Made by a program: the position numbers and the translations under genes. The notes under the pieces were generated by a model. That model was given only the letters and a program-made list of their open reading frames with translations, searched no databases and was not told where the DNA came from. 40,662 nt of DNA from Verrucomicrobiota bacterium (GTDB lineage: Bacteria > Verrucomicrobiota > Verrucomicrobiia > Limisphaerales > UBA9464): assembly GCA_029865985.1 (NCBI GenBank), contig JARXAF010000093.1, positions 1 to 40,662 on the forward strand, read 5' to 3'. Below are positions 4,136-20,655 of the stretch, one piece after another (position 1 is the first letter of the stretch; every line of letters begins with the position of its first letter).

Positions 4136-5407
4136 ATGGACGCAAGTAAACTGACATTCCAACGGGTGGCGTTGCTGGGAGTGGGGGCCTTCACTCAGGC
4201 GTTGATGCGTCACCTGGGGCGCGACGGCGCGGAGGTCACGGCCTACCTCACCCGGGACTACGCTCATTATGGGCCGCGTCAGGAGGGGCCCTGCGTTTCC
4301 AGCGTCGAAGTGCCCAACCCCTGCCCCGGTTTCCGGCAGCATCGACCCGACTTCCTGATCCCGATGTCGCTCGAGTGGGCGCTGCGGCCTTGGACCGCTG
4401 AACTCTTGGGCTTAGGCATCCCCATCCTCTGCCCGACGGGCGAGGGCTTGCGCCTCGAGCGTGAGCGCGATTTTGCCCGAGAACTGTGCCGGCAAACTGG
4501 CATCCCCTTCCCGCAGTCTCACCTCATCCCCACGCGCGCCGAGGCCGAAGCTCTGGTCCGGCGCGAGGGACGCCCCTTCGTGGTGAAGAACCCGCTGTGC
4601 TCCCCGACCAGTCCCATCCACACCATCGTCTGCGAAACGCCGGAAGACACGCTGGCTTGGCTACCGCGCATCGATGATGCCGAGGGCATCTTCCTTCAGG
4701 AATATCTCGGACGCCGCGAGGCCGGGCACATCGCGCTGGTCAGCGACGGTGAGATCCATTCGTTGGTCACCAACCAGGAATACAAGCGGGCCTTCGACGG
4801 CAACCTGGGCATCGTGGCTGGCGCACCGCTGGGCGGGCTGGTGGAGCGCGATCCGGGCGACCGCTACGGACTGGCTCGCGAACTCCTGGAACCCCTGCGC
4901 CCGTGGTTCCGCGAGGTCGGATTCCGCGGACCCGTGCAGGTCACGGCCATTCGTCACGACGATCGCTGGCATGTGCTCGAGTACAATGTGCGGCTGGGTG
5001 TCACCAGTGGGCCCATGATCGCCTCCATGCTGGCCAACCCGATGGAAACCTTCGGTCGCTGTGCGCTGGGCTTGCCATTGAATCCCCAATGGCGGCCTGG
5101 AAAGGAATTCGGCTGCAACCTCACGCTGGCCGGCTACGGATACCCCTTCACCCAACTCACCGGACCTCGGGTTCCCGTGACGGTCGAAGGTTCCTTTCAA
5201 GGCGAGGTTTGGTGGCAAGAAGTGGCCGAGTCGGTGCTGGGCGGACTGGAAGCAACCGGTCACCGCATTGCCGACATCACGGCCCTGGCCGGCACCCTGG
5301 AGGAGGCCATCGCCACGGCCTACGCCGACATCCGAAAAATTCGCTCGCTCGGCAGCTACTATCGAACCGATGTGGGGCAATCGCTGTGGCCTCCTGGCAA
5401 CGCATGA
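4136..5407 (+). CDS. Divergent PurD-family ATP-grasp ligase
   Basis: A 423-residue protein about as long as phosphoribosylamine-glycine ligase (PurD). PurD-like parts are the ATP-grasp strand GRPFVVKN, QEYKRAFDG at 214-222 (PurD: QDHKRAYDG-like), the metal/ATP-binding EYNVRLG at 282-288 (PurD: EFNVRFGDPE), and the C-terminal ITALAGTLEEAI and YYRTDVG at 408-414. Differences stand out: the N-terminal GSGGREHAL motif is replaced by GVGAFTQAL, the GKGV-type loop after the first lysine strand is missing, NTGGMGAYSP is replaced by a stretch with APLGG, and GDPETQ after the NxR motif is GVTSGP. The nucleotide core thus looks kept while acceptor-side motifs are changed. Its stop overlaps the alr start by 4 bases. 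Either a very divergent PurD or, more likely, a paralogue ligating another amine substrate; the substrate cannot be read from sequence. Confidence 0.75.
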   Translation: MDASKLTFQRVALLGVGAFTQALMRHLGRDGAEVTAYLTRDYAHYGPRQEGPCVSSVEVPNPCPGFRQHRPDFLIPMSLEWALRPWTAELLGLGIPILCPTGEGLRLERERDFARELCRQTGIPFPQSHLIPTRAEAEALVRREGRPFVVKNPLCSPTSPIHTIVCETPEDTLAWLPRIDDAEGIFLQEYLGRREAGHIALVSDGEIHSLVTNQEYKRAFDGNLGIVAGAPLGGLVERDPGDRYGLARELLEPLRPWFREVGFRGPVQVTAIRHDDRWHVLEYNVRLGVTSGPMIASMLANPMETFGRCALGLPLNPQWRPGKEFGCNLTLAGYGYPFTQLTGPRVPVTVEGSFQGEVWWQEVAESVLGGLEATGHRIADITALAGTLEEAIATAYADIRKIRSLGSYYRTDVGQSLWPPGNA

Positions 5408-6558
5408 AGGCAACCGTTTCCCGCCCCCGTTCCGCCTGGGTCGAGGTGGACCTCGAACAATTCGCACGCAACTGGGAAATCCTCCGCAAAGAAGTCCCGG
5501 CCCCGGTCTCGTTGATGTTTGTCGCGAAGGACAACGCCTATGGACTGGGTGCCGTACCAGCCGCGCGGGTGGCGCTCGATCATCAGGCCGATTCCCTCGC
5601 TGTCTTCACACTCGGAGAAGCCCAAGAACTCCGCGACGCCGGCATCACCGCGCCCATTCTGATTTTGGGAGAGCGGCTCGCGGAAGAGGTGCCGCATGTG
5701 CTGGAGCTGGACCTGGAACCCTGTGTGGGATCGATCGAATTGGCCGAGGCCTTCTCGAAGGCTGCCCGTGAACGGAGCCGACCTGTGGCCATCCACCTGA
5801 AGATCAACACCGGCATGAACCGGTTCGGGTTCTCGTGGAGGAGCGTCGAATCCTGGGCGCCGAATCTGAAAGCACTGCCAGCCTTGGAGTTCCGCGGAGC
5901 ATTGAGCCATTTCGCCCAGAGCGACGAACTCGACAAGGGCTTCGCCCGCACCCAGTCCGGCCGATTCGAGGCGGTGCTAGACCACCTTGCCGCCGAAGGC
6001 ATCCGTCCGCGCTGGATCCACCACTGTAACTCGGGCGGCGTGCTCGATCTGCCGGACGCCCATTTCAACCGCGTGCGCGTCGGTCTGCTGGCCCAGGGCG
6101 TTTATCCCTCGGAGGTTTGCCGGCGCATCGACGGAATCGCCCCAGTGCTGTCGCTGCGGGCCCGGATCACGGCGATCCAGGCGCTCGAGGCCGGCGACAC
6201 GGTGGGCTACGGCATGCGCTGGCGCGCCGAAGGACCGTGCCGGATCGGCGTGCTGTCGATCGGCTACGGCGACGGCTACCCGCGGCTCCGCAACCAGGGG
6301 CATGTGCTGCTGCACGGCCACCGCGTCCCGCTCGTGGGGGGCGTGACGATGGACGCGTTGATGGTGGATCTGGCCACGGTGCCCGAGGCGCGAATCGGCG
6401 ACGAGGCGGTGCTGCTCGGCAGTCAGGGCTCCGAGCGCATCACCGTCCAAGAACTGGCCAGCCTGCGCGGGACGGTCACCTACGATGTATTGACCGGCCT
6501 GCGGGGACGCCTTCCGCGGGTGTACCGCGGCGGAATCGGCGATGGGAATCCGGGTTGA
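5404..6558 (+). CDS. alr: Alanine racemase
   Basis: A 384-residue PLP-dependent enzyme that interconverts L- and D-alanine for peptidoglycan. The N-terminal barrel carries the PLP lysine K42 in VAKDNAYGLG. INTGMNRFGF, HCNSGG and RVGLLAQGVYP follow the family pattern. The C-terminal domain has the catalytic tyrosine Y269 in GYGMRW, then SIGYGDGYPR and VTMDALMVDL. Length is normal for the family. The frame is open far upstream, but the ATG at 5404 sits on the stop of the preceding ligase (ATGA) and matches the usual start just before SAWVEVDL. Coupling to the PurD-like ligase suggests the two enzymes are made in fixed ratio. A dedicated racemase for another amino acid is possible but nothing in the motifs demands it. 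Confidence 0.93.
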   Translation: MKATVSRPRSAWVEVDLEQFARNWEILRKEVPAPVSLMFVAKDNAYGLGAVPAARVALDHQADSLAVFTLGEAQELRDAGITAPILILGERLAEEVPHVLELDLEPCVGSIELAEAFSKAARERSRPVAIHLKINTGMNRFGFSWRSVESWAPNLKALPALEFRGALSHFAQSDELDKGFARTQSGRFEAVLDHLAAEGIRPRWIHHCNSGGVLDLPDAHFNRVRVGLLAQGVYPSEVCRRIDGIAPVLSLRARITAIQALEAGDTVGYGMRWRAEGPCRIGVLSIGYGDGYPRLRNQGHVLLHGHRVPLVGGVTMDALMVDLATVPEARIGDEAVLLGSQGSERITVQELASLRGTVTYDVLTGLRGRLPRVYRGGIGDGNPG

Positions 6559-14198: not shown

Positions 14199-17100
14199 CT
14201 ACCGGTACACCGCGGGCTCCGCGCCCAAGCTGCCAGAAAGTTCCGCAAGTCGTTGATCCGAGCGGCTGCGTTCCAGCATGACGAGGGCATAGGAGCGCCG
14301 CTCCCTCAAGCCCAGCCTCTCGGCCTCCTTGGAATACTCGGGACGGCTGAGCAACCGCTCCAAATAAGTGGCGATGTTGTTCCAGTGGCGCACCTCCAAT
14401 TCGCGCCGCATCTCCAAACGGGCCCGGTACCAAGGGCTCCCCAGCACGCTCTCCCGCGTGAACATCGACCGGAACGCCGCGTCACCGAGTTGCAATCCCT
14501 CGTAGGCTCCATCCCGCATGATGTGGAGCAGGGCCTTGAGTGGCGGCACTGCTTGATTCACAGAACCGTCATCGAAGTAGTTTTGGGAGACACGGCGATG
14601 GGTGGCGGCAATGTTGTCCACCGAGTCGGCGTATTGTCCGGCATCCTGCTTCTCAGGTCGGAGCATGTTCTCTACCAGAACCGCATGGGGGTGGTTGAAC
14701 ATCCGCCCGAGGAAGTCGTTCACAAACTTCGGAGTAACACGCCATCCAAGCCGGCTGGCTGGAACGGTCCGTCCCTCATGAGTGAAATCGGTGACGCGTT
14801 CCAGATATCCACGGGAAATCAAGAAGGCCGGATCCCGCTCGCCAACACCCATCCGGCACCAAACTTCGGGCACCAGCAGACTGATGTCGTGGTCGACACG
14901 GGTCTTGGGTCCGAGGTAACCGGCGCTCGTCAAGAACACCGGATTCTCGGATACGGCGAAGCTCACGAAAGCCGCGTTGAGATCGTAAATCGGCGGCAAG
15001 GCATTGAACGGACTCTTGGTCAGTGCGCCTTCGCTTCCGGCACCGGTCGTGGACGGAGACTTGCCCGTCATGCTGGAGATGAACTCCATGAACGCCTCCG
15101 GCAATTCCATGTGATGGATTGGGCCGTAACAAGCCAGCGGACGCACCCCGGGTTCGCCCGGATTGTTCCGACGACCGGCCAAAACCGCGTGCACCGGCGT
15201 GTAGACCGGTCGGCTCATGGGAAGGCGACGCGCCAAGCGGGCCGACATGTCCGTCAAATGACGGCCCAACTCGTCCAAAAGGTCCGGACGGGTCTGGAGG
15301 TACCGGGGATTCTTGGACGGTTTGCCATCCACGATTCGCGGGTGTGAAGTGGTCACAATCCATCCGGGCGAACCATCCCCCGGCTCCGAGGCCGCAGCCG
15401 CCTCGATGAGGGCGCGCATGGGGGCGGTGTACTGGTTGAGAGCAATGGCATCATCAACGATGTCGCGCGCTTGCTGGCGCGAGATGGGCTCGTAATTGCT
15501 GAAGAAGCAACCGCCGCCGGCGAAGTCCGCTTCGGCGGCCTTGTCGTAACCGCGATGAATGGCGTCGTCGGGCCGCTGGAAGAGACGAAACTCGGTGTTC
15601 TGGACGAACTTGAGAGACGGATAATGGCTTTGCGGATCCAAACCCTCCAACTGACTGCGCGGCACGGTCACGCTCGCCGTGATGTCATCTTCCATCTGAA
15701 GCTTGAAAGCTGGGATGTAGTCCTTGCGAAGTCCGAAGGTGCGCCAAGCATTGTCGTCGTCATACCCCACGCGCAGGAATTGGGTGACCAGACGTTTGCG
15801 GCCCAACCGCAGTTCGTTGGCAGGCGTTCCGTTGATCACATCGACGCTGAAGCGGGATCGCCAATCCTCGCCCCAGGAGGGTTGCCAGAACCGCTTCACC
15901 ACCAGAACCAGTTCGCGGATGTGTGCGGGAACGGAGCCGATCCACGCGTTGTGCTCCTCTGAAAAATCATCGCTGGGTGTCAGCAACTTGATGACCGAAC
16001 CGAGCGTTCGACGAGGGCTCAGGATGGGACGTTGATCTTGCCCGTTGCGCATGGAATCCCGGAAACGTTGGGAAAAGTCGCGGGCCAAAACCACGGCCAC
16101 CCGGTCGAAATCCTGCGTCAAGTCGGCGACAAAGACCGAACCAAAGAGAATGGCGTCCGTGATCGGCTTGGAGATCTCGCTCTTGCCGCCACCCGATACC
16201 GTACAAGGCTTGTGGCAGAGGGTTCCCTCCGGGCGGGTCCCCACCAGACGCCACGCGCGTCCGGCCATGGCGGGTGGCTCCAAATGCACCCGGAAACCAC
16301 TGGGAAGGAGGTAATGATGATCCCGGCGGAGACGAAGGGACCGAGACTTGCCGGCGTCATCCCAACGAACCGTGAGCGATTCGATATCAAAACACGCATT
16401 CTCGGGCACGTAGACCACTTTCGAAAACCGCTTGTCCAACGCGTAGCCTTCGGGCTGAAGGTCGATGGACTCCGGGATCAACCGCGTGACCTCCGAGAAG
16501 CTGTAGGGGAAATCAGCACGGTGCTGCTGGGCGTCGTATTCGCTGCCGAGATCGTGACGGGCGAAGACCAAGGCTCCGCCGGCGTGCTCTTCTTCCACCA
16601 ACCCGAACAAGTTGGCCGCAAAGCTGATCTGGGTTTTGACCTCCTTCTTGCAGTAGCCGAAGTAGTTGTCCGAGATGAGGGTCACAATGACCCCGGACGC
16701 ATCCCGCGCGGTCAGCTTGAACGCGTTTCCGTCGTTGTAGAGTTCGCGGGGATCGGTCCAGCACATGCCGTCCCGACGCTGGCGCTCGGTGGCTTCGTCG
16801 CGATGCGGAAGACCCACCTCCTTCTTGGTGAGCCCGTTGAGGTGCGGGGCCAGAATCACGCAGCCGGTGTGGCCGCTCCAGTGCTCGGCATCGAGGGCTG
16901 CGTCATTTTCAGGCAGCACCGGGTCACCCGCATTGCCGAAGATGCTCTCCACGAAGTCCAGATTGGCCACCAGCGATCCTGGCACGAAGAACCGGATCTC
17001 CATGCTCTTGCGGGGCGTCACACCGGGCACCTCCGGGCAAATGACAGGCCGGATGAGCAACGAGACCATACAGGCTGCCGGAGCGTCTCCGGATGAGGTG

Positions 17101-17639
17101 AATGGCAGGCGCATCAACTCCTCGGGAGGCTGAAGGGCCCGAGCCAGCAAATCGCCAAACACCGCCTTAGGAACGCCCTTCTTGTCGTCCGGAATCGGCA
17201 AACCTCCCTCGGTGACGTGGAAGATGCCCGCCGTCGTCCGTCGGTCCGACTTCGGATTGTGCAAGATCCCATTGCGCAACCGGTAACTCCGCAGCATGGG
17301 CGAGGCGACCTCGTCCTTGTCGGGCGGCAGAGACAACACCCGAGCCAACCCATACTGGTCCAAGACGAAGCTGTTGCGCGGCAATTCGCGGGGCACCGAG
17401 GTGTCGGACAAGTAGTCGTGCAGGAAATTATTGATCCGCCGATCGACAGGGCTGGCGTAACGGGCCAGCAGCCGATCCTTTTCGCGGCCTTGGGCAATGA
17501 AAGACTCCAACAAGGAATCCAACGTGCCCGCTCCGCCGGAGAGGGGGACGCCAGTCATCCCCATCTCAGCCAGTTTCAAATTGATGTGCCGATGGAGATC
17601 GGTCGGATTCGGAGGATTCAGTCCAATGGAACGGGTCAT
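14199..17639 (-). CDS. Large uncharacterised cytoplasmic protein (1146 residues)
   Basis: I do not recognise the family. The protein is 1146 residues long with no signal peptide and no obvious membrane segment, so it is probably cytoplasmic. The ATG at 17639 is the first in a clean N-terminus. Segments that look constrained: SDNYFGYCKKEVKTQI (about 324-339) followed by an EEEHAGGALVFAR stretch; GYALDKRFSKVVYVP; and TGKSPSTTGAGSEGALTK (858-875), which resembles a phosphate-binding loop in composition but does not fit the Walker A spacing. Near the end are charged helices. It is convergent with the DUF1501 gene and runs in the same direction as the small membrane protein upstream, 129 bases away. 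Codon use and base content match its neighbours, so there is no sign of recent transfer. The uninterrupted frame and protein-like composition make it a real gene. Confidence 0.85.
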   Translation of the reverse strand: MTRSIGLNPPNPTDLHRHINLKLAEMGMTGVPLSGGAGTLDSLLESFIAQGREKDRLLARYASPVDRRINNFLHDYLSDTSVPRELPRNSFVLDQYGLARVLSLPPDKDEVASPMLRSYRLRNGILHNPKSDRRTTAGIFHVTEGGLPIPDDKKGVPKAVFGDLLARALQPPEELMRLPFTSSGDAPAACMVSLLIRPVICPEVPGVTPRKSMEIRFFVPGSLVANLDFVESIFGNAGDPVLPENDAALDAEHWSGHTGCVILAPHLNGLTKKEVGLPHRDEATERQRRDGMCWTDPRELYNDGNAFKLTARDASGVIVTLISDNYFGYCKKEVKTQISFAANLFGLVEEEHAGGALVFARHDLGSEYDAQQHRADFPYSFSEVTRLIPESIDLQPEGYALDKRFSKVVYVPENACFDIESLTVRWDDAGKSRSLRLRRDHHYLLPSGFRVHLEPPAMAGRAWRLVGTRPEGTLCHKPCTVSGGGKSEISKPITDAILFGSVFVADLTQDFDRVAVVLARDFSQRFRDSMRNGQDQRPILSPRRTLGSVIKLLTPSDDFSEEHNAWIGSVPAHIRELVLVVKRFWQPSWGEDWRSRFSVDVINGTPANELRLGRKRLVTQFLRVGYDDDNAWRTFGLRKDYIPAFKLQMEDDITASVTVPRSQLEGLDPQSHYPSLKFVQNTEFRLFQRPDDAIHRGYDKAAEADFAGGGCFFSNYEPISRQQARDIVDDAIALNQYTAPMRALIEAAAASEPGDGSPGWIVTTSHPRIVDGKPSKNPRYLQTRPDLLDELGRHLTDMSARLARRLPMSRPVYTPVHAVLAGRRNNPGEPGVRPLACYGPIHHMELPEAFMEFISSMTGKSPSTTGAGSEGALTKSPFNALPPIYDLNAAFVSFAVSENPVFLTSAGYLGPKTRVDHDISLLVPEVWCRMGVGERDPAFLISRGYLERVTDFTHEGRTVPASRLGWRVTPKFVNDFLGRMFNHPHAVLVENMLRPEKQDAGQYADSVDNIAATHRRVSQNYFDDGSVNQAVPPLKALLHIMRDGAYEGLQLGDAAFRSMFTRESVLGSPWYRARLEMRRELEVRHWNNIATYLERLLSRPEYSKEAERLGLRERRSYALVMLERSRSDQRLAELSGSLGAEPAVYR

Positions 17640-18688: not shown

Positions 18689-20527
18689 TCAAGTCCGCGA
18701 ACGCTTTTTGCGAAGCGCCTGAACGGCGGCTTGGACCCGCCAACCGGACGCTTCCAAGGCCGATTGAGCCATCTCCGGAGTCACTTGGGTCAACTCTTGC
18801 ACGATACGACACGCCCGATCGCGCAGTTTCACGTTGGAGGGGTTGAGATCGATCATGAGGTTCTCCTCCACCTTCCCGAGGCGGACCATGGTCAGGGTGC
18901 TCAGGATGTTGAGGACCAGCTTGGTGGCGGTGCCGGCCTTGAGCCGCGTGGAGCCGGTGAGTACCTCCGGGCCGACGTCGATGGCCAGAACGACATCCGG
19001 CCGGAAGCTTCGGGAGAACTTCAGGTGCGGATTGAAACACAGCAACGCGGTGCGGGCTCCGGCTTCACGGGCAGCAGCCAGACCGCCCCAGACATAGGGA
19101 GTCCTGCCGGAAGCGGCGATACCCACCACCACATCCTTCGAAGAAACAGTCCGAAGTCGAAGCGCCTCGCGACCGGCTTCGGCATCGTCTTCGGCCCCCT
19201 CCACGGACGTGTGCAGGGCTTTTTCGCCACCGGCCATGATGCCCTGAACCCACTCGGGCGGAGTGCGAAAGGTCGGAGGGCATTCGCTCGCGTCCAAAAC
19301 ACCCAGACGGCCACTGGTCCCTGCGCCGATATAAATCAATCGCCCCCCCATGCGGATGGCGTTTTCAGCCAAGCGGATCAACCGCGCCAAGGCTGCTCGA
19401 TGTGGGGCGATGGCACTCGGCACTTGAGAGTCCTCGGACAACATCAACTCGATCGCCTGGCTGACAGGCATCCGGTCCAGTTGCCGAGACCGTGGATTCC
19501 GCAGCTCCGTCGGTGAAACGCCCGTTGATCCCGGGCGCGGGATGGGCGGAGGCATCACCACCGCCGACTTCGAGGTTTCCGCCACCGCGATAATTTCTCT
19601 GGCGGCCAGAGCCTTCTCAGCCAGGACCACCGCACCCCAAGCCGACTCTCGACCCAAAGTGCGAACCACCGCCTGAGGACGCGCGCTTCGGAGAACGTTC
19701 TCGATGTGGGGGAGCCATCCGGGTTGGCGCAGGAAAACACTGCCCGCCAACACGAATTCCACCTGTCCCCGGCCCGAGCGATCCAACCGCTCGGCACAAA
19801 CCAACGCCAGCTCCAGCAATTCACCCAGACACCGTTCGATGACCTGCTGAGCACCCGGATCACCCTGAGCCGCCGCCGCAAACACTTCAGGCGCCAAGGC
19901 GGCGACCTCGCGCTTGGACACCGATTGCATCCAACCCACCCATGCTTCGGAGTCTTGCAACCCCACTTTTTTGAGAAGGCGGCGTCCCAGAGCGCCGACG
20001 CGGCCCGTCTGCTCCAGTTGACGAATGGACTCGCGCAATCCCGCGTATCCAATCGCGTAACCGCTGCCTTGATCCCCCAACTGATGACCCCACCCGCCCG
20101 CCTTGGCCGTCACGCCGCGGCGATTCCGGCCAAAACAGCAGGAACCGGTCCCGCTCAGGATGATCACCCGTGCATGAACCGCATTGCCGGCATCCAAGGA
20201 CGCCGCCTCCAATGCGCTCACCAAGTCGTGGTCGACGCGAACCGGAACGGCGGGCCAGACCCGCGCCACACAGGCCCGCAATCTTTGCCGGTCTTCCTCG
20301 GTCCTCACCCCGGCCATGCCGATACCGATGGCGGCCGGATCGGGCAGGCGGGATTTCAGCGCACTGAAATGGGACTCGAGTTGGGCGTCGGAGATGAGTC
20401 GCAAGTTGGCCGCCCCGGCTTCCACACGAGCCAAGGGTTCTCGCGAGCCCAGCGCCGCAGCCAACGCCACAGTACGTGTGCCACCGCATTCGATGCCGAT
20501 CACTGACTTCGCCTCCGGTTCCGTCAT
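18689..20527 (-). CDS. murQ: Bifunctional sugar kinase (BadF/MurK-like) - MurNAc-6-phosphate etherase
   Basis: A 612-residue fusion. Residues 1-310 are an ASKHA/BadF-type kinase: phosphate-1 loop GIECGGTRT (11-19), GMAGVRTEEDR, D101 in VDHDL as probable catalytic base, ILSGTGSCCFG (123-133), GGWGHQLGDQGSGY (144-157). A variable linker (about 311-345) leads to MurQ (about 346-612): a SIS fold with GAGTSGRLGVLDASECPPTF, E415 and E446 matching the two functional glutamates of E. coli MurQ (Glu83, Glu114) in spacing, IAASGRTPY and GSTRLKAGTATK. MurK of Clostridium acetobutylicum, a kinase of this superfamily, phosphorylates MurNAc and GlcNAc. If the N-terminal half does the same, one chain would convert MurNAc to GlcNAc-6-phosphate and lactate. 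Start at ATG 20527; an earlier in-frame start at 20605 would run into the WYL promoter region. Divergent from a WYL regulator. Confidence 0.9.
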   Translation of the reverse strand: MTEPEAKSVIGIECGGTRTVALAAALGSREPLARVEAGAANLRLISDAQLESHFSALKSRLPDPAAIGIGMAGVRTEEDRQRLRACVARVWPAVPVRVDHDLVSALEAASLDAGNAVHARVIILSGTGSCCFGRNRRGVTAKAGGWGHQLGDQGSGYAIGYAGLRESIRQLEQTGRVGALGRRLLKKVGLQDSEAWVGWMQSVSKREVAALAPEVFAAAAQGDPGAQQVIERCLGELLELALVCAERLDRSGRGQVEFVLAGSVFLRQPGWLPHIENVLRSARPQAVVRTLGRESAWGAVVLAEKALAAREIIAVAETSKSAVVMPPPIPRPGSTGVSPTELRNPRSRQLDRMPVSQAIELMLSEDSQVPSAIAPHRAALARLIRLAENAIRMGGRLIYIGAGTSGRLGVLDASECPPTFRTPPEWVQGIMAGGEKALHTSVEGAEDDAEAGREALRLRTVSSKDVVVGIAASGRTPYVWGGLAAAREAGARTALLCFNPHLKFSRSFRPDVVLAIDVGPEVLTGSTRLKAGTATKLVLNILSTLTMVRLGKVEENLMIDLNPSNVKLRDRACRIVQELTQVTPEMAQSALEASGWRVQAAVQALRKKRSRT

Positions 20528-20568
20528 GGGGTGAATTGGAAGACCGCGGCGCCCCGAGACAAAAGCCC

Positions 20569-20590
20569 AAAGCGCGGAGAAACACGCTTT
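20569..20590. promoter_or_regulatory. Inverted repeat in the divergent murQ/WYL promoter region
   Basis: AAAGCG (20569-20574) and CGCTTT (20585-20590) form a perfect 6-base inverted repeat with a 10-base spacer in the 128-base gap between the divergently transcribed kinase/MurQ gene and the WYL regulator. It could be an operator for the WYL protein. Six-base repeats are common by chance, so this is a weak call. Confidence 0.25.
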
Positions 20591-20655
20591 CGGGAATCCA
20601 TTCAACCGGCGGCTCCAGTGTTGGCAATCACTCGGTCTCGGAACAGTTTGGGGGG

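Follow-up and report, generated by a model that had tools for sequence, protein, structure and literature searches.

Contig JARXAF010000093.1 of a Verrucomicrobiota bacterium from the order Limisphaerales, whose 40,662 nucleotides are the window analysed here, encodes a protein of the ATP-grasp type (hereafter LIG), whose gene overlaps that of an alanine racemase. LIG would be an active, ADP-forming carboxylate-amine ligase derived from PurD, the glycinamide ribonucleotide synthetase of the purine pathway, and its family recurs together with the racemase and with a transferase similar to ATE/Bpt enzymes. We somewhat favour a reading, whose substrates, order of steps and product we infer, in which LIG, a dedicated alanine racemase and the ATE/Bpt-type transferase form a three-part module that builds a D-alanine-containing peptide. 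The features of the window on which this reading is based are the following:

4136..5407, forward strand: LIG, a 423-residue PurD-derived ATP-grasp ligase of a distinct family, with an ATG start
5404..6558, forward strand: alr, a pyridoxal-phosphate alanine racemase of the LIG-linked clade, 384 residues from the ATG at 5404
5404..5407, forward strand: ATGA overlap between the LIG stop and the alr start, as read from the sequence

The original prediction had described a 423-residue reading frame of the PurD type with the motifs QEYKRAFDG, EYNVRLG, LEEAI and YYRTDVG, all of which are present in LIG, and an overlap of four bases with alr, which is confirmed by the ATG of alr at 5404-5406 and the TGA of LIG at 5405-5407 within a shared ATGA. 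It had also proposed a retained ATP core. Among 29 diverse aligned LIGs, K151, Q188, N213-F220 (NQEYKRAF), E282, N284 and R286 are invariant (29/29), and they include the core lysine, the Glu/Asn pair and the arginine of ATP-grasp ligases (K151, E282, N284 and R286), which together with their neighbours of the same kind we take to be the ATP/metal core positions. The ATP-grasp core of LIG looks, thus, intact.

The likeness to PurD ends on the substrate side. TIGR00877 (purD) is the nearest named family, matched by all 29 LIGs scanned, but LIG fails its equivalog cut-off of 288 with only 87 bits, against 491 bits for the PurD of its own genome. LIG lies barely above both Pfam cut-offs, for GARS_A (27.3, cut-off 27) and for GARS_C (35.8, cut-off 34.8), and PADLOC gave no match to it. 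Its identity is about 24-26% to the PurD of its own genome and about 19-28% to PurD in general. The predicted loss of the PurD substrate motifs is borne out by an alignment of 104 of the 110 LIG rows (410-440 residues) with 18 canonical PurD from the window's order, in which the sites of GREHAL, the KADGLALGKGV loop, NTGGMG and GDPETQ are occupied in LIG by different residues. These LIG-specific residues at the sites of the lost motifs are themselves largely conserved (around LGVGAF, KNPLCSPTSPIHT, AGAPLGG and GVTSG). The conserved stretches that replace the substrate-side motifs of PurD lie around LGVGAF, YLTRDYAHYGP, PMSLEW and KNPLCSPTSPIHTI, with AGAPLGG, EYNVRLGVTSG, TLAGYGYP and SLWPPG, as written in the protein of the window, as further ones.

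A maximum-likelihood tree separates 35 hand-picked LIG rows from 24 PurD rows (18 from LIG genomes and 6 of the 18 of another PurD set) with 100/100 support and a very long connecting branch, and places LIG outside the PurD clade; a position inside ordinary PurD, which the original prediction had named as refuting, is thus not what the tree shows. For this alignment and tree, the start codons of LIG were assigned by rule, and the N-termini of PurD were trimmed beforehand. On the evidence of its sequences, LIG is a family separate from ordinary PurD. The fold, in turn, is that of PurD: with an AlphaFold2 model of LIG (pLDDT 89.8) as the query, the first 15 Foldseek hits were all PurD (TM on query 0.73-0.82, 19-23% identity), followed by biotin carboxylase as the next family.

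The claim that LIG is not the PurD of its host agrees with the canonical purD found at another locus of the window's genome (G000, 3.6 Mb, 92% complete), so that the lack of any other purD, which the original prediction had named among its refuting conditions, does not apply either. In all, canonical PurD occurs in 18 of the 22 LIG genomes searched, with at least 222 bits on GARS_A, and was not found in the other four (G439, G440, G447 and G455). Among these, purF is present in G455 and, as two adjoining pieces, in G447; the near kin of G455 (G456 and G458) possess PurD, so that its gap is likely an artefact of a metagenome-assembled genome (MAG), and we regard the missing PurD of both G447 and G455 as probable gaps of this kind. 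No purF over the cut-off (350) was found in G439 and G440, with best scores of 50 and 110 bits, so that LIG is retained where the step preceding PurD is missing. These are the genomes of loci L083, titled KSB3, and L085, titled 'Bacterium UASB270', which we take to be KSB3 as well, and whose LIG stands next to that of L083 in the tree, in line with this assignment. The lack of both canonical purD and purF over cut-off in these two KSB3-type genomes suggests purine auxotrophy. In summary, LIG shares with PurD (TIGR00877; PDB 2yw2, 2xcl and 1gso) the fold, the ATP-grasp core positions and the C-terminal domain, but differs in its replaced substrate-region motifs, its own clade, its TIGR00877 score far under the cut-off, and the presence of a true PurD alongside it in most of the genomes checked.

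Of the 196 genomes sampled from the window's order, 66 contain a LIG match (E <= 6.1e-95), with a clear gap to the PurD-level matches (E >= 8.6e-19) that fill the rest of the 112 matches in the order; by this measure, the family is real and conserved. When 240 genomes were drawn from the phylum (E <= 1e-30, completeness of at least 85%, with 22 of the 240 rows listed), two had LIG, namely the window's genome and G317, which belongs to the same class; this gives neither a rate nor a readable share for the order. A scan of genome contigs yielded 108 LIG relatives, of which 80 loci were kept. Most are titled Verrucomicrobia or kin, and the others KSB1, Calditrichota, KSB3, SAR324, one alphaproteobacterium and one Glaciecola-titled MAG. 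These names are record titles, several of which ('Akkermansia muciniphila') look wrong. Most of the genomes are MAGs, and the co-occurrence counts given below are of non-independent events.

The second member of the module is the alanine racemase. The alr of the window, with 330 bits on TIGR00492 against a cut-off of 168, is the only Ala_racemase_C match in its genome. A racemase gene lies on the same strand within 300 bases of LIG in 63 of the 80 loci, across several phyla, as well as in 25 of 29 further loci of the order. The coupling of the ligase to an amino-acid racemase is thereby upheld, although 'always next to alr', as the original prediction had it, was too strong. In a tree of 44 racemases, 26 linked rows, picked for spread from 91, form a clade (100/99) together with one racemase from the genome of L070, encoded on another contig. 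The 18 unlinked rows, that of L070 among them, came from 30 racemases of LIG genomes (the other 12 being linked ones repeated): the sister rows to the linked clade are extra racemases of the genomes of L090 and L113, and the other 15, which are housekeeping alr of LIG genomes, fall outside it. The two sister racemases (L163 and L166) adjoin, by eye, a short GT2-like gene. Among the 16 LIG genomes examined that are not titled Verrucomicrobiota, 11 have at least two alr matches, which include fragments, and five have one; in several groups, therefore, the linked racemase comes on top of another alr.

The residues of the linked racemases also set them apart. We compared 87 of the 91 linked rows (360-440 residues) with the 15 housekeeping rows, leaving out the unlinked, operon-like L163, L166 and L168, and transferred by motif the residue roles described for AlrTt, including its entryway Arg313, in PMC4517790. 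The positions of the catalytic lysine and tyrosine, two arginines, Met-Asp and the inner-gate tyrosine are kept in 87/87 linked rows. The position of the middle-layer entryway arginine is occupied by glycine (77/87) or serine (10/87), whereas arginine is found there in 10 of the 15 housekeeping rows, and the catalytic lysine is followed by aspartate in 81/87 linked rows, in contrast to the alanine of the housekeeping ones. The linked racemase resembles Alr (TIGR00492) in its score and catalytic positions, and differs from it in its clade and in these two substitutions. Since the catalytic positions and the inner-gate tyrosine are kept, it likely acts on alanine, and the replaced arginine could perhaps allow a wider entry. 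Such a dedicated racemase paralogue makes the D-amino-acid ligation of the original prediction more likely, the ligation itself being a step that we infer.

A third partner, which lies outside the window and was thus not visible to the author of that prediction, is a gene of about 267 codons that follows the LIG-alr pair in 40 loci and comes straight after LIG in 5 more (45/80 in total). Its product matches ATE_C (5.8e-9), and each of the 24 members aligned is recognised by arginyltransferase models at E <= 1 (best E 1.4e-17); for L110, the only member with bits shown, the 63.9 bits do not reach the arginyltransferase equivalog cut-off of 170. When solved structures were searched with a profile, nothing matched at E <= 0.1, but the search by fold gave matches: the nearest solved fold to the transferase model (pLDDT 88.4) is human ATE1, with a TM of 0.60, followed at lower scores by the tRNA-dependent peptide synthases Sbb17/Sba18, aPGS/MprF and FemX. 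The family is therefore akin to ATE/Bpt (PF04377) in its model matches and its nearest fold. It differs from it in the score of L110, in a conserved N-terminus of its own, and in the absence of the Cys-rich N-terminal motif, which is present in four of five hand-picked Bpt-like comparators (L228 is also without it).

Linkage between LIG and this transferase extends beyond immediate adjacency. In the window's order, the transferase was found in 60 of 66 LIG genomes versus 7 of 130 genomes without LIG. By families (62 in total, read from the codes seen), 25 have both genes, one has LIG alone and one has the transferase alone. For the 34 of the 80 loci without a transferase in the flanks, a module-type copy was found elsewhere in 23 genomes, weak generic matches in 4 and none in 7; in L063, the 35th locus, the transferase lies in the flank on the opposite strand. 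In G317, a single contig of 4.15 Mb, LIG, the racemase and the transferase are consecutive. No module-type transferase was found in the KSB3-type genomes of L083 and L085, where a FemAB-like gene (Acetyltransf_6 + FemAB) lies directly upstream of LIG (L083:4942-5922 and L085:4905-5885). Such a FemAB-like gene in genomes that lack the ATE-like one fits a common step of tRNA-dependent amine acylation.

PurD couples the carboxylate of glycine to the amine of phosphoribosylamine, and D-alanine is a near analogue of glycine. With the substrate-side motifs gone, the core kept and a dedicated racemase at hand, the most economical change would be from glycine to D-alanine and to a new amine. In the module that we favour, the racemase would make the D-amino acid, most likely D-alanine; LIG would use ATP to phosphorylate its carboxylate, as PurD does with glycine, and would pass the activated D-alanine to some amine that is not phosphoribosylamine; and a charged tRNA would supply the L-amino acid that the ATE/Bpt-type transferase adds to a free amine. 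The product would be a D-alanine-containing peptide on a small-molecule or peptidoglycan-precursor acceptor, and a role in the cell wall or in a natural product can be envisaged for the module.

Several observations weigh against this module. A racemase within 300 bases is absent from 17 of the 80 LIG loci, which, like the other absences among neighbours, is an upper bound because loci truncated by contig ends are counted. In the six Verrucomicrobiota LIG genomes checked (6/6), as in the window's genome, the linked alr is the only one, so that it presumably serves the wall too, and adjacency is weak proof by itself. Two SAR324 loci (L101 and L107) and the alphaproteobacterial one (L102) come from genomes whose single alr is not part of the linked clade and where no module-type transferase was found; in SAR324, as far as examined, LIG is present and its partners were not seen. 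No transferase match was found in the window's genome or in the four LIG genomes of family f2. For the window's genome a MAG gap is the likely reason: the ten loci most closely related to its own (L034-L043) come from genomes that each carry the transferase, beyond the flanks fetched around LIG; in the seven of them that were inspected, it adjoins, by eye, a lipA-like gene. Finally, no gene for export, for a carrier or for the wall was seen conserved beside the module.

The foremost alternative is a special case of the same module, where LIG, as a wall enzyme, would load a peptidoglycan precursor with D-alanine or another D-amino acid and the L-amino acid would be added by the transferase, the whole being a Gram-negative counterpart of D-aspartate ligase, aspartate racemase and Fem. 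The D-aspartate ligase of Gram-positive cross-bridges is paired with aspartate racemase, and racemases belong to the cross-bridge toolkit, so that the trio of ATP-grasp ligase, racemase and tRNA-dependent GNAT transferase is the same. The LIG module departs from these systems in its PurD-derived ATP-grasp family, in the bacterial groups that carry it and in a link to the wall that is only presumed. According to PMC2922099, cross-links with D-amino acids are made by ATP-grasp ligases, those with glycine and L-amino acids draw on tRNA through GNAT/Fem enzymes, and the Fem, ATE-type and MprF-type enzymes are relatives of one another, so that the pairing of an ATP-grasp ligase with a tRNA-dependent GNAT enzyme is part of that toolkit. 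The FemAB-like gene beside LIG in the KSB3-type loci and the linked alr as the sole one in the Verrucomicrobiota checked also point to the wall. Against it stand the lack of any mur, pbp or lipid II gene seen conserved beside the module and the absence of LIG from 130 of the 196 sampled genomes of the order. Furthermore, we know of no peptide bridges from these bacterial groups. We consider this specific version unlikely on balance.

Protein tagging, where LIG and the transferase would add residues to protein termini in the manner of ATE/Bpt and RimK, draws on the homology of the transferase to ATE/Bpt and its 24/24 matches to arginyltransferase models, but it is made improbable by the missing Cys-rich motif, found in most of the Bpt-like comparators, and by the score of L110 under the cut-off. 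Three more explanations were tested and set aside on the evidence. That LIG is a second, Ddl-like D-Ala-D-X ligase, as its ATP-grasp fold and its place beside alr could suggest, is very unlikely given that its nearest folds are PurD and that a strong Ddl-domain match (164.9 bits, cut-off 24) exists at another locus of its genome; LIG itself gave no match to Dala_Dala_lig_C (Pfam) at E <= 1. It is hardly credible that LIG shares by chance an operon with a housekeeping alr: the single alr of the Verrucomicrobiota genomes checked would agree with this, but the pair recurs across several phyla, and in the racemase tree the linked rows stand apart from the housekeeping alr of LIG genomes as a clade of their own. 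Least probable of all is a diverged yet functional PurD, for which the common fold, the 29/29 matches to TIGR00877, the GARS_A and GARS_C scores just above cut-off and the four genomes without a canonical PurD (two of them with purF) would speak, against the canonical PurD in its own genome and in 18/22 LIG genomes, the different substrate-region motifs and separate clade, the retention of LIG in two genomes also without purF over cut-off, and the probable MAG gap in G455, whose kin have PurD.

Other neighbours were set aside as too narrowly conserved to be partners of the module: ABC ATPases, PSCyt-type proteins, a pilin-like protein, the lipA-like gene by the unlinked transferase, the branched-chain amino-acid ABC genes of SAR324, and, in four loci, an Rce1-like protein encoded upstream of LIG. 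Their labels were mostly given by eye, except for Rce1, which comes from a profile match. The Rce1-like gene encodes a membrane protein of the CAAX protease family and occurs in L089, L090, L103 and L113, where the transferase comes directly after LIG with no alr between them. Elsewhere in the window, a 638-residue reading frame on the reverse strand (18689-20605) combines a BadF/BcrA-type ATPase domain with a glucokinase-regulator-like SIS domain (Pfam), and may unite a sugar kinase with a MurQ-like etherase in one protein for wall recycling. A reading frame of 1146 residues on the reverse strand (14199-17639) has no Pfam match at E <= 0.001, and one on the forward strand (330-2996) encodes a VIT-domain protein with a match below cut-off to an XrtN-system family and a terminal PEP-CTERM sorting signal.

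Among the literature matches listed, titles and abstract openings mention no such module and no PurD-like ligase beside a racemase, which is weak evidence, as subscription papers are mostly outside this coverage. The nearest named family of LIG is purD, while the evidence from genomes says that it is not PurD, so that its real role is easily overlooked. The combination of a purine enzyme fold with a dedicated racemase and a probable tRNA-dependent transferase would be a new one for D-peptide synthesis. Our tentative view, which we hold with less than even confidence, is that a ligase of the purine pathway may have been recruited to D-alanine, and that distant phyla may share a three-enzyme pathway for D-amino-acid branches on a peptidoglycan precursor or for a new small peptide. 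The module could thus lead to a wall modification or a metabolite as yet unknown, within one order of Verrucomicrobiota as well as in Calditrichota, KSB1 and KSB3-type bacteria.

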